Source of the DNA: an uncultured Caldimicrobium sp. | Lineage (GTDB): Bacteria; Desulfobacterota; Thermodesulfobacteria; Thermodesulfobacteriales; Thermodesulfobacteriaceae | Length of the DNA stretch: 11,169 bases | Direction of reading: 5' to 3' | Assembly: GCA_938091475.1 (NCBI GenBank) | Contig: CALLJI010000014.1 | Coordinates: 1-11,169, forward strand | In this document: one piece after another, positions 3,331-10,452 of the stretch | Layout: every line of letters starts with the position of its first letter | How positions within the stretch are numbered: position 1 is the stretch's first letter | Program-made: the position numbers and the translations under genes | The notes under the pieces: generated by a model | The model's input: the letters and a program-made list of their open reading frames with translations, nothing else | Database searches by the model: none | What the model was told of the DNA's origin: nothing

Positions 3331-4490
3331 AATGACACCTCCTTTTTCTCCAAATTATAAAACTCTTCCAAGTTTTTCAGAAAAACTTCCCAAAGTTTAG
3401 GCTCTATCTCCTTTCCCTCAACCAAAGCATAAAATTCCTTAAATAAAGCCTTTTCATCTAAATCTATTGCCTCCAGAGAAAAATTTACCTCTACTTTATC
3501 TTCCTTGGAAAAATTAGATGAGTAGGTGTATTCCAGATAAAGCAAATTTGGAAAGAGAGCCTTAAGCCTTTCGTAGACATTAAAAATAGGCTTTTCATCT
3601 TCAAGTATAATCTTTGTATAAGCATTAGTTTTAGGCTGCTTCTCAATCTGAGCAAAAGTCCCTTTAAGAGTAAGGAGTTCATAGGGAGAAGTCAAGGCCA
3701 TAAATTCATTTCGGATGATCCTGTTATCTCTCCATTCTATAAATCTAACTCCCCTCTCTTCAATAAAGGTCTCAAAGGAATAAGGCATAGGTGCACCAGG
3801 ATAGATAAATTTTTCTTTTTTCATTTGAGGGCGATGCAGATGCCCTAAACAGGCTATGTCAAAGGATTGAAACATAGCTTCTGGTAAGAGATAATCTTCG
3901 GAAAACCCTTTTATGGAAATTTCCTCCCCACAGCTTTGGAATTGATCTAAGGCAAAGTGGGTTACTATAAAGGCAGGCCTTTTAAAAGGGATTTCTTTAA
4001 AAAGGGTCTCTAAAAGAGTTGTGTAAGTTATAGATTCTGGGATTTCAAAGGAAAGGAAGGCTCTTGCTTTCTCTAATAACTCATAGAGGGGAAGATAGGG
4101 TAAAAAATAGAAGTTTACTTCCTCTCCCCGATTATCCTTAAGGGAAAAAGGGGTAAAAAAATACTTTAAGTGGTCAATAAGATAAATTTGCGCCTGCTCT
4201 AAGAAATAGCTATGATAGGCTGTTCTTCGAGAATCGTGATTTCCAAGGATAAAAAAAGAAGGAATTTTGTAAGTAGAAAGCTCTTTCAAAAAATCTTCGT
4301 AAAAATAGAGAGTTTCCTGATCAGGAATAGGTCTATCTAAAATATCTCCTGCCACAATTAATAAGTCTGGTTTTAGGTCCTTTAAGCAGGAAAGAAATTC
4401 TCCTTGAAAAAATTCTGCTTGTTTTGACAAGAGTTTTTCTCTATAGAGAAATTTGCCCAAATGCCAGTCTGAAGATAACAATATTTTCAT
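3321..4490 (-). CDS. sbcD: SbcD/Mre11-type DNA double-strand-break nuclease
   Basis: 389 residues of the SbcD/Mre11 calcineurin-like phosphoesterase family. Such proteins form the Mn-dependent nuclease of the SbcCD complex, which opens hairpins and trims blocked DNA ends. All five phosphodiesterase motifs are visible: DWHLGK (8-13), GDILDRP (48-54), GNHDSR (83-88) with the catalytic His85, THFALD (176-181) and GHLHRP (215-220). The C-terminal part (about 260-389) is the more variable capping region. The gene overlaps rlmE by four bases (ATGA) and dapB by ten, so translation is probably coupled. The usual ATPase partner sbcC is not adjacent: the next gene downstream is dapB. The partner is either elsewhere in the genome, or this is a solitary Mre11-like nuclease. 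Family is secure; the exact orthology to SbcD is likely rather than certain. Confidence 0.9.
   Translation of the reverse strand: MKILLSSDWHLGKFLYREKLLSKQAEFFQGEFLSCLKDLKPDLLIVAGDILDRPIPDQETLYFYEDFLKELSTYKIPSFFILGNHDSRRTAYHSYFLEQAQIYLIDHLKYFFTPFSLKDNRGEEVNFYFLPYLPLYELLEKARAFLSFEIPESITYTTLLETLFKEIPFKRPAFIVTHFALDQFQSCGEEISIKGFSEDYLLPEAMFQSFDIACLGHLHRPQMKKEKFIYPGAPMPYSFETFIEERGVRFIEWRDNRIIRNEFMALTSPYELLTLKGTFAQIEKQPKTNAYTKIILEDEKPIFNVYERLKALFPNLLYLEYTYSSNFSKEDKVEVNFSLEAIDLDEKALFKEFYALVEGKEIEPKLWEVFLKNLEEFYNLEKKEVSLCQ
3336..3344 (-). promoter_or_regulatory. Strong Shine-Dalgarno site of dapB
   Basis: AAGGAGGTG on the minus strand, five bases before the dapB ATG and inside the last codons of sbcD. 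It is the best ribosome binding site in the window and decides the dapB start. Most other genes here have weak sites or rely on overlap with the upstream gene. Confidence 0.85.
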
Positions 4491-5083
4491 TTTTTATTAA
4501 AGGCTATTATAAAAAGTTCTTTACTTCCCTTTCGGGTAGCAGTTGGTCTAAAAATTTTAACATTCTCAAAGGATTTTTCAAATTCTCTTTGGACCTTTTT
4601 TAGCTCTGGACCATCAAAAATTTTTACCACCATATCGCCACCTTTTTTAAGAAAAGCTTTGGCTAAGTCCAAGGCTTTTAAGACTAATTCCACAGATCTC
4701 AGGTGATCTGAAAAGTCAATACCTGTAGTTTTAGGAGCCATATCACTGAGAATGAGATCAAACTTTTCTATTTTTAATGGCGCAAAATCTTCTGGGCTTA
4801 AGGTGAAAACATCTTTTTGGATAAAGGTAAAAAGAGTAGATTTGAACTTAACCGGTTCTATATCCACACCTACCACCTTTCCTTCCTTCCCCACAATTTC
4901 GCAAGCAAATTGTGACCAAGAGCCTGGGCTTGCTCCTAAATCCAATATTTTATAACCAGGTTTTATTAGCTTAAAGCGTTCTTGAATTTCTTTGAGTTTA
5001 AAAACAGAACGGGCTGGATACCCCTTTTCTTTAGCTAATCTTGCCCATTTATCAAACCAAGGATTTTTTTTGAAACCTTTCAT
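4487..5083 (-). CDS. rlmE: 23S rRNA (uridine-2'-O-)-methyltransferase RlmE/FtsJ
   Basis: 198 residues, close to the 209 of the E. coli enzyme that 2'-O-methylates U2552 in the 23S rRNA A-loop late in 50S assembly. The SAM-binding motif I is DLGASPGSWSQ (48-58). The catalytic Lys-Asp-Lys-Glu tetrad is intact with family spacing: Lys29 in FKLKEI, Asp114 in LSDMAPKTTG, Lys154 in VVKIFDG and Glu189 near the end. The ATG at 5083 is the only sensible start, because the protein already begins at the conserved N-terminal region. No Shine-Dalgarno sequence precedes it; instead a -10-like TAAAAT sits seven bases upstream (see promoter). It is the first gene of the seven-gene minus-strand run, and its stop overlaps the sbcD start as ATGA. 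Very secure. Confidence 0.96.
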   Translation of the reverse strand: MKGFKKNPWFDKWARLAKEKGYPARSVFKLKEIQERFKLIKPGYKILDLGASPGSWSQFACEIVGKEGKVVGVDIEPVKFKSTLFTFIQKDVFTLSPEDFAPLKIEKFDLILSDMAPKTTGIDFSDHLRSVELVLKALDLAKAFLKKGGDMVVKIFDGPELKKVQREFEKSFENVKIFRPTATRKGSKELFIIAFNKK

Positions 5084-5090
5084 AGCATAA

Positions 5091-5118
5091 ATTTTAATCT
5101 ATGGAGATTTTATTTCAA
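5091..5118 (-). promoter_or_regulatory. Predicted sigma70-type promoter of the rlmE-murI operon
   Basis: On the minus strand TTGAAA (5113-5118) and TAAAAT (5091-5096) are separated by 16 bases, a good match to TTGACA/TATAAT. The -10 box ends only seven bases before the rlmE ATG, so transcription would start at or within a base or two of the start codon. There is no Shine-Dalgarno sequence, which fits a leaderless mRNA. Prediction only. Confidence 0.55.
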
Positions 5119-5133
5119 ATTTTCGTTGTGTAG

Positions 5134-5180
5134 TTACTATTTTGAAACATCACAGTTAATTACTATTTTAAAATGTCACA
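5134..5180. repeat. Direct repeat pair, possible insertion-sequence end relic
   Basis: Two 21-base copies at 5134-5154 and 5160-5180 agree at 18 of 21 positions, with a 26-base period. Both begin TTACTATTTT and end TCACA. On the minus strand each copy starts with TGTGA and ends in AATAGTAA. Short internal direct repeats beginning with TGT are typical of IS21-family ends, so this may be what is left of one; that is inference, and no transposase is present. The pair lies just upstream of the rlmE promoter and could alternatively be a double operator. Confidence 0.5.
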
Positions 5181-5218
5181 TAAAGGGTGCGATATGCTTT
5201 ATAAAAATGGTTTTCTTT

Positions 5219-5242
5219 GTAGTGGCACGGCACCGCCGTGCC
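5219..5242 (+). repeat. REP-like element 1
   Basis: GTAG at 5219-5222, one T, then an eight-pair perfect stem GGCACGGC/GCCGTGCC (5224-5231 with 5235-5242) around the loop ACC. It faces element 2, so the two form a head-to-head pair like a BIME of enterobacteria. The stem type recurs in element 8. Confidence 0.75.
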
Positions 5243-5246
5243 CAAA

Positions 5247-5273
5247 GAGGGCAGCCGCAAGGGCTGCCTCTAC
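5247..5273 (-). repeat. REP-like element 2
   Basis: On the minus strand GTAG (5270-5273) leads into a seven-pair stem GGCAGCC/GGCTGCC (5250-5256 with 5262-5268), closed by two further pairs beyond a bulged base at 5249. The loop is five bases. The bulge near the foot resembles classical REP hairpins. Confidence 0.72.
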
Positions 5274-5291
5274 GATTTTTTTATAATTATT

Positions 5292-5315
5292 GGGCTCAGC
5301 ATGCTGAGCCCCTAC
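5292..5315 (-). repeat. REP-like element 3
   Basis: A perfect 20-base palindrome, GGGCTCAGCATGCTGAGCCC (5292-5311), followed directly by CTAC (5312-5315), i.e. GTAG at the foot on the minus strand. AT-rich flank CAAATTTTTATTT follows. Confidence 0.78.
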
Positions 5316-5329
5316 AAATTTTTATTTCT

Positions 5330-5353
5330 GGGCAAATCGTGATTTGCCCCTAC
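5330..5353 (-). repeat. REP-like element 4
   Basis: Nine-pair stem GGGCAAATC/GATTTGCCC (5330-5338 with 5341-5349) with loop GT, followed by CTAC (5350-5353). It differs from element 6 by a swapped A-T pair in the stem, a compensatory change. Confidence 0.78.
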
Positions 5354-5362
5354 AGTTTTTCT

Positions 5363-5385
5363 CGCAGGCTAAAGCCTGCGGCTAC
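5363..5385 (-). repeat. REP-like element 5
   Basis: Eight-pair stem CGCAGGCT/AGCCTGCG (5363-5370 with 5373-5380) around AA. One base separates it from CTAC (5382-5385), which is GTAG on the minus strand. Confidence 0.75.
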
Positions 5386-5398
5386 CATTATGTATTGG

Positions 5399-5421
5399 GT
5401 AGGGGCAATTCGTGAATTGCC
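5399..5421 (+). repeat. REP-like element 6
   Basis: GTAG (5399-5402) followed after one G by the eight-pair stem GGCAATTC/GAATTGCC (5404-5411 with 5414-5421), loop GT. It is oriented opposite to element 5. Its stem type returns in element 10, about 5 kb away. Confidence 0.77.
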
Positions 5422-5440
5422 ACAATGGGTTTAATATGTG

Positions 5441-5463
5441 GGCGATTGGTGAACCGCCTCTGC
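5441..5463 (-). repeat. REP-like element 7, degenerate
   Basis: Imperfect stem GGCGATT/AACCGCC (5441-5447 with 5452-5458) containing one mismatch, followed by CTGC (5460-5463), i.e. GCAG instead of GTAG on the minus strand. It looks like a decayed member of the family. Confidence 0.5.
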
Positions 5464-5488
5464 CATAATAACCATTCATTTCAGAGAC

Positions 5489-5525: not shown

Positions 5526-5921
5526 ATGCAAAACCAACCTATAGCCAAAAATCCAGTACTTCTTCAACTTCCTACAGGGCTTTATTTGGGTTTAGTCTGC
5601 TATAATCCCCTTTATGAAAACTTAAAATTTGTTTTAGAGAAAAGAGATTTTTTTGAGATGGAATGGCCTGCCCTAATGGTCTCTCAAGAGAAAGGTTTTT
5701 TTCCTATGCTGCTTGGATTACCCTATATTACAATTCAGCGTTGTCAGATCCTCTGGTATACCACCCACATTCCCTCAGACATTCTTAAACAATATCAAGC
5801 CTTTATACCCTTTTTAAGTGAGAAATCGGCTGTTCCTCCTCCCTCTCCCTCCCCTAAAAGTTCTCCCCCTAAAATTATTCCCTTCCCTACTAAAGAGAAA
5901 GGGAAAAAGGATGACTCTTAA
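5526..5921 (+). CDS. Hypothetical protein upstream of rpe (131 aa)
   Basis: I do not recognise this protein. The first 98 or so residues look like a compact globular domain rich in aromatic residues and leucine (for example LPTGLYLGLVCYNPLYENL at 15-33, and FFPMLLGLPYITI at 58-70). Residues 101-122 are Pro/Ser-rich (VPPPSPSPKSSPP), and the last nine are highly charged. There is no signal peptide and no clear membrane span. It starts at the first ATG after a predicted promoter and overlaps the rpe start by 11 nt in another frame: its codons GAT GAC TCT TAA contain the rpe ATG. Translation of rpe is therefore probably coupled to it. The protein-like composition of the N-terminal domain, a promoter in the right place and the overlap support a real gene. 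The low-complexity tail could be a flexible linker or interaction segment. Confidence 0.72.
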   Translation: MQNQPIAKNPVLLQLPTGLYLGLVCYNPLYENLKFVLEKRDFFEMEWPALMVSQEKGFFPMLLGLPYITIQRCQILWYTTHIPSDILKQYQAFIPFLSEKSAVPPPSPSPKSSPPKIIPFPTKEKGKKDDS

Positions 5922-10428: not shown

Positions 10429-10452
10429 GGGCACGGCGTGCCGTGCCCCTAC
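10429..10452 (-). repeat. REP-like element 8
   Basis: Nine-pair perfect stem GGGCACGGC/GCCGTGCCC (10429-10437 with 10440-10448) around GT, followed by CTAC (10449-10452), i.e. GTAG at the foot on the minus strand. Same stem type as element 1. Confidence 0.78.

Follow-up and report, generated by a model that had tools for sequence, protein, structure and literature searches.

A row of GTAG-footed REP hairpins in an uncultured Caldimicrobium probably forms the interior of an IS-derived, MITE-like element

The window, the whole 11,169-nucleotide stretch of DNA analysed here, is contig 14 of a draft genome (G000; GCA_938091475.1) of an uncultured Caldimicrobium sp., which comprises 1,260,560 bases in 233 contigs and is 72% complete. 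Two divergent ORFs face away from the region of interest: an FtsJ-family gene at 4487-5083 (- strand), which we take to be rlmE, and a 131-aa ORF at 5526-5921 (+ strand) with no match in Pfam. The ORF after the latter presumably encodes a ribulose-phosphate 3-epimerase-like protein, judging from its sequence. Between the divergent ORFs, 5219-5463 holds six hairpins with perfect stems on an exact GTAG foot and a seventh, degenerate one on GCAG, which bears out the first-pass annotation's count of seven hairpins on GTAG or a one-base variant (Table 1). They lie on both strands and are joined by AT-rich linkers. First-order Markov copies of this region contain a mean of 0.007 GTAG hairpins, compared to the 6 observed.

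The feature reaches beyond its hairpins: it opens with a tandem pair of IS-end repeats and starts at about 5129, our inferred position of the exact terminus. The leader between these repeats and the first hairpin recurs at other copies, as read from 33 distinct matched pieces of 5100-5212 in sampled loci of the genome, some of which stop short of the leader. In the window copy, seven hairpins follow the left end, with no recognisable right end. On the far side of the array, 5456-5476 is an imperfect inverted repeat (71%) of the leader sequence at 5206-5226, possibly the worn remnant of a second left end. No IS end was recognised within the window near the lone hairpin downstream.

Table 1. Features of the array and its surroundings in the window.
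Feature	Position	Strand	Details
Putative IS left end (LE), ISNCY/IS1202-type	5129..5180	+	TGTAG terminus, then TTACTATTTTGAAACATCACA (5134-5154) and TTACTATTTTAAAATGTCACA (5160-5180) in tandem
Leader, IS end to first hairpin	5181..5218	+	recurs at other copies
REP hairpin 1	5219..5242	+	stem type A (CACGGC), foot GTAG; hairpin scans
REP hairpin 2	5250..5273	-	stem type D (CAGCCC), foot GTAG; hairpin scans
REP hairpin 3	5292..5315	-	stem type B (CTCAGC), foot GTAG; hairpin scans
REP hairpin 4	5330..5353	-	stem type C (CAAATC), foot GTAG; hairpin scans
REP hairpin 5	5363..5385	-	stem type F (GTAGCCGCAGGCT), foot GTAG; word exact in genomes of many phyla; hairpin scans
REP hairpin 6	5399..5421	+	stem CAATTC, loop variant CAATTCGTG, foot GTAG; hairpin scans
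Degenerate REP hairpin 7	5440..5463	-	foot GCAG (one-base variant), stem imperfect; read from sequence, missed by strict scans
Lone REP hairpin	10429..10452	-	stem type A, between two ORFs; same family as array

Hairpins of this kind are abundant in the genome. A strict pattern (GTAGGGGC, palindrome positions, GCCC) gave 307 forward and 332 reverse matches and none in the reversed control; because elements footed on both sides may count twice, the true number of hairpins is somewhat below the match count. A looser hairpin pattern matched 921 times (control 1). Copy numbers for the genome are lower bounds, with 40 of 221 candidates scored in one search and 40 of 94 in another. Among stems of at least 7 bp, 258 have GTAG at the foot, against 18 expected from its frequency, in 135,912 bases that are enriched for arrays (the window and 35 stretches, 34 of them picked for similarity to the window array). 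Across 36 sampled sequences, likewise array-enriched, 281 of 284 GTAG[GC][GC] hairpins fall outside ORFs of at least 150 aa, which cover 53% of the sampled bases; the remaining three are all inside the ORF of a RAYT. The hairpins are GTAG-type REPs: short palindromes with GTAG at one foot, numerous and mostly extragenic. The first-pass annotation had staked its repeat family on further copies and on an excess of GTAG at stem feet over chance, and both are present, the copies numbering in the hundreds and lying mostly outside ORFs.

In the remaining six genomes of the genus, the same looser pattern found 19, 1, 0, 0, 0 and 0 matches, the 19 being in G001. Among the genomes searched, the REP expansion is peculiar to the lineage of G000. 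This distribution bears on the idea that the hairpins are RNA elements, terminators or determinants of mRNA stability, that regulate rlmE and the gene at 5526. GC-rich stems beside AT-rich linkers and a position between divergent ORFs would suit such a role. However, the window array itself has no match in the six other genus genomes, it lies upstream of two divergent starts, and arrays in this genome string together as many as 18 hairpins on mixed strands, unlike terminators. We regard a regulatory role of this kind as very improbable.

About 13 stem words share the constant GTAG foot in the genome, in line with the proposal that several stem types stand side by side: A CACGGC, B CTCAGC, C CAAATC, D CAGCCC, E CACAGC, F CAGGCT, G CAATTCAAG, H CGATTC, I CACGAC, J CAGGGC, K CTGGGC, L CGGTTC and M CAATTCACG. 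Within arrays, A, H, I, J, K, L and M occupy one strand and D, G, B, C, F and E the opposite one. These classes were derived from set A, loci picked by similarity to the window array, in which 843 of 881 pairs agree with the rule (within-array strand shuffles: mean 475, maximum of 500 shuffles 545). Set B was gathered with the type-I word or from the first places of the general pattern, after removal of hairpins with an already seen 20-nt context, and 341 of its 352 pairs agree (shuffles: mean 197, maximum 239). CAATTC was divided into G and M only once both sets had been seen, set B having shown CAATTC mixed (5 and 6). Leaving out the CAATTC words, agreement is 753 of 776 pairs in set A (highest shuffle 477) and 308 of 315 in set B (highest shuffle 220).

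The words also follow one another in a preferred sequence. The best cyclic order in set A, D-G-B-C-(M)-F-E-I-H-J-A-L-K, accounts for 177 adjacent steps forward and 32 backward, with the fit placing M, a strand-1 word, amid the strand-2 run. In set B, 68 of 106 steps follow this order (0.64, versus 0.51 with words permuted within strand class; p = 0.004). The strand of the stem types is nearly absolute, and their order is a tendency. REP types in fixed opposite orientation are a property of BIMEs, and the BIME-like pairing noticed in the window is confirmed, with the strand fixed by stem type. Hairpins 4 and 6 of the window do differ by a swapped A-T pair, which had been taken for a compensatory change. 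Across the genome, CAAATC and CAATTC exist as distinct stem words with many copies each, so the swap between hairpins 4 and 6 is no evidence of a compensatory change.

The 72% complete genome yielded a single Y1_Tnp gene, a 237-aa ORF on contig 217 (L044). It contains MPNHIH, LWQRNYY and YIINNP, which match the NH[IFV]H, WQ and YIxNNP motifs of TnpAREP subclass 2.4, and it scores 27.7 bits against Y1_Tnp (cut-off 23) and 61.5 against REP_Tyr_transpos, under that profile's cut-off of 80. One of its flanks carries hairpins of types A and J and the opposite flank hairpins of types I, C, F, E, A and others, and three more lie in frame within its coding sequence, between the HUH motif and the tyrosine helix. 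The genome thereby contains a RAYT with the same kinds of hairpin on its flanks, which the first-pass annotation had proposed to look for. We assign the ORF to subclass 2.4 by its motifs and in-frame REPs rather than by a subclass profile. REPs that flank the transposase gene and also lie in frame between HUH and Tyr are given as a mark of this subclass in the accessible text of PMC6006769, and we dropped the in-frame REPs as a novelty for that reason.

Relatives of the RAYT (E <= 1e-10) occur in 74 of 297 genomes searched. The 73 besides its own share only its phylum, and none shares its genus, family or order, a distribution beyond its own order that suggests the gene arrived horizontally. 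GTAG hairpins occupy the same loop across the phylum, in 23 of 26 ORFs with both motifs, in a survey of 30 loci that includes our own and in which four have no ORF carrying both motifs. At the relatives' loci, GTAG hairpins are present in 13 of 15 RAYT-like ORFs versus 7 of 55 other ORFs (ATG to stop, at least 150 aa). Another set of Y1_Tnp genes from relatives (L074-L113) proved to belong to other groups: their ORFs have no GTAG hairpins inside, and just four of the loci have one nearby, of differing sequence. One genome in this set, G032, carries RAYT-like genes of another group in at least 16 closely similar copies (L074-L089), and G034 has four RAYT-like loci (L090-L093), in both cases with no GTAG hairpins in the stretches examined.

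The arrays in G000 have distinct borders. A repeat, TTACTATTTTRAAATGTCACA, marks the border between array and unique DNA, often as a tandem pair and mostly after TGTGG or a variant. At this left end, TGTGG is the majority sequence and one or two repeats follow. A second type of border, reading TTATTCCTAAGGTCAAGTCACACT... from outside, was taken as the opposite (right) end, and its terminus is ...ACA in 6 of 12 two-ended units. The end repeat (20 bases, at most one mismatch) is found in 10 of 198 genomes including our own, all of the same family (control 0). In two family relatives, G011 and G027, it precedes transposase ORFs. The G027 transposase (L376) scores 296.6 bits against the ISNCY transposase profile NF033594 (cut-off 250); in G011, two pieces of one copy score 88.7 and 129.3 and a piece of the other copy 59.3, all under the cut-off. 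Because the repeat stands ahead of ISNCY transposase ORFs in relatives, we read the border repeats, from sequence, as the ends of an ISNCY/IS1202-type IS. The accessible text of PMC10132070 describes TGT ends for the family and target duplications of 16-28 bp for the IS1202 group, and that of PMC10045372 gives the group's duplications as 5-6, 15-17 and 24-29 bp.

A search for rve matches gave no ISNCY transposase candidate in the 72% complete draft, and since no transposase gene stands beside the ends in G000, we class the element as IS-derived and MITE-like rather than as an IS. The end repeat is also absent near the rve genes of G002, G003 and G006 at up to five mismatches. Short, gutted ISNCY copies that retain the start of the transposase gene occur within the family (L385, L394 and L399 in G007; L336 in G005). 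No REPs were seen in the parts of these copies examined, and they are probably the empty form of the shell.

Among 50 distinct IS ends with 250 nt of sequence on both sides, 49 have hairpins on the inward side and none on the outward side (176 versus 0 hairpins). We used this union because its two component groups share 12 ends: 22 ends picked by the end motif alone (22 inward with 79 hairpins, 0 outward) and 40 ends in REP-picked loci (39 inward with 143 hairpins, 0 outward). All 10 motif-picked ends absent from the REP-picked loci have hairpins inward and none outward. One could suppose that IS1202-type elements took REP arrays as insertion targets, and IS insertion into REPs is known, according to the accessible text of PMC8450116 and a reference title in PMC2817692. 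Such a preference predicts REPs outside the IS ends, whereas 0 of the 50 ends has one within 250 nt outward, and we give this account hardly any credence.

Counted from the arrays, 44 of 76 have at least one IS end in the correct orientation within 350 nt, and 10 lie between a left and a right end. An end in the wrong orientation occurs at 0 of 152 array sides, some of which are cut short. The other 32 arrays have no recognisable end, 14 of them being cut on one side by the end of the locus or contig. These counts come from a per-array table; a best-match search on joined flanks undercounts. Array orientation is likewise tied to the ends. Read inward, the strand rule runs in the same sense at 43 of the 49 left ends and at all 7 right ends, these 56 ends representing fewer arrays, with L014, L017, L021, L026, L032, L037, L353 and L358 counted from two ends (by eye). 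At six left ends the array runs the opposite way. By eye, two of the six (L024, L031) are right ends that the motif missed and two (L026, L032) have a left end on both sides, leaving L030 and L166 as orientation exceptions. At 18 of the 49 left ends the array opens with a type-A hairpin in the plus sense.

The 12 two-ended units also carry traces of target duplication. Their own outer flanks align better than swapped flanks (means 8.25 versus 5.66; permutation p = 0.00015), and 16 bp is the best duplication length among the registers and lengths tried, a long duplication in the 16-28 bp group. Direct repeats of 16 bp are seen in 4 of the 12 units, with 13 (L020), 14 (L036), 13 (L155) and 14 (L343) identical sites. 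The other eight lack a clear duplication (10 of 16 in L353, 2-7 of 16 in the other seven). Since one of the swapped pairs also scores 13 of 16, it is the permutation, not any individual unit, that carries the test; the L020 case is weakened by the similarity of its right flank to that of L017. The duplications have diverged at 2-3 of 16 sites, which suggests that the shell movements are not recent. No empty site was seen in a relative. For the window array we compared, by eye, the surroundings of rlmE within the genus: the neighbour in G001, G004, G005 and G006 is a gene other than that at 5526, and the pieces from G002 and G003 show no upstream ORF. At L390 in G007, again by eye, an IS left end lies about 300 nt upstream of an apparent ortholog of the window's 5526 gene; this locus has no GTAG hairpins and different genes on its opposite side.

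An ordinary RAYT-mobilised REP/BIME family, in which the RAYT inserted hairpins or pairs singly and the IS ends are incidental neighbours, would account for the GTAG foot, the stem diversity and a RAYT flanked by the same hairpin kinds. It also sits well with the 32 arrays that have no recognisable IS end, and opposite orientations are general in BIMEs as described in the accessible text of PMC2817692. Independent insertions, however, would not confine hairpins to the inner side of the IS ends (49 of 50 versus 0 of 50), lock array orientation to those ends or leave 16-bp duplications outside the ends of some units, and we therefore think it unlikely that the RAYT acted alone. The first-pass annotation had inferred a mobilised repeat family. 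It was right that this is a REP family with a RAYT, but many of the arrays also lie within the ends of an unrelated DDE-type IS, some complete units have target duplications around them, and the strand and, to a lesser degree, the order of the stem types are fixed, so that mobilisation by the RAYT is at best half of the story.

Taken together, these results make it probable that the array fills the inside of a non-autonomous, MITE-like element derived from an IS, loaded with REPs and spread by an IS transposase. An ISNCY/IS1202-type IS would have lost its transposase gene, and its ends would have come to enclose an array of about 13 kinds of GTAG REP, each with a preferred strand. The RAYT, with these REPs as its predicted substrates, probably built the ancestral array in one such shell by single-strand cutting and joining at GTAG. 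An IS transposase acting on the IS ends would then have copied whole loaded units to new sites, producing the 16-bp target duplications; the ISNCY transposase that moved the shells would now be missing or lie in the unassembled part of the genome. Later loss of single hairpins and of one end may have left the present mosaic copies. The REPs of this genome seem to have spread as IS cargo as well as by their own enzyme.

A bolder version unites two unrelated transposition systems in one element. A RAYT with self-inserted REPs would have settled inside an IS1202-type shell; the HUH enzyme would have multiplied and diversified the hairpins while a DDE transposase spread the loaded shell, so that the REPs expanded as MITE cargo. 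We hold this version in even balance. The array downstream of the RAYT gene terminates in an IS right end (one mismatch in 24; L044 1328-1351), as expected if the RAYT still lives in a shell, and the contig ends before any left end could appear.

REPs, BIMEs, RAYTs with internal REPs, IS1202 elements and MITEs are each already known, and the comparisons that follow refer to the accessible text of the sources. The GTAG-tagged REPs of Di Nocera et al. 2013 (PMC3733652) share the GTAG foot, stems of 5-13 bp, several families per genome, dimers and clusters, association with RAYTs and some intragenic copies; no array enclosed by IS ends and no strand rule over about 13 words is described there. 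Species with several families have repeat-specific REPtrons in that account, whereas a single RAYT was found here, with 72% of the genome covered. TnpAREP subclass 2.4 (Quentin et al. 2018, PMC6006769) offers the NHIH, WQ and YIINNP motifs, double-foot REPs and the flanking and in-frame REPs between HUH and Tyr, but no REP arrays between the ends of another IS are described. BIMEs of E. coli and Stenotrophomonas (PMC2817692) have opposite REP orientations, modular repetition and hybrid arrays of REPs from different RAYTs; they consist of few REP types, unlike the roughly 13 stem words here, and boundaries formed by IS ends are not described. IS1202/ISNCY elements and MITEs (PMC10132070) resemble our shell in the 16-28 bp duplications of the IS1202 group and probably also in the TGT end and an additional transposase-binding site, whereas here REP hairpins replace the transposase gene (a RAYT gene and REPs beside one right end). 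A search that included few subscription papers found no published account of REP arrays as cargo between IS ends.

To our knowledge, RAYT-driven movement is hard to catch, and how REPs and BIMEs spread is for that reason an open question. The arrays described here bear the marks of a better understood mechanism, namely IS ends, locked orientation and target duplications. They point to a second road to REP abundance and caution against crediting every REP expansion to a RAYT, and the series of copies lets the growth and loss of arrays be read.

One stem word has a far wider range than its neighbours. The exact 23-nt type-F word, CGCAGGCTAAAGCCTGCGGCTAC (window 5363-5385), is present in at least 111 stretches of other genomes (L204-L314). 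Hosts among the matches listed, named from 80 of them, include Nitrospirae, Planctomycetes, Ignavibacteria, Omnitrophota, Aerophobetes, Cloacimonadota, WOR-3, Clostridia, Anaerolineae, Acidobacteria, Brevinematales, Uhrbacteria and others. A partner hairpin, CCGCAACC or CCGCACCC, lies within 400 nt in 26 of the 111 listed loci, and the two are in opposite orientation in 39 of 39 pairs among the matches listed. We rejected a cross-phylum alphabet of stem words: in the 111 listed type-F loci, 15 of 16 other words or loop variants gave 0 matches and one CAATTCATG variant gave 1. The core word was not found in the literature searched, and a REP so widespread and unchanged deserves separate study. 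At one of the 111 listed loci (L306, 6846-7320), and only there, a RAYT-like ORF of 158 aa has type-F hairpins on both sides, which makes it a candidate transposase of the widespread word.
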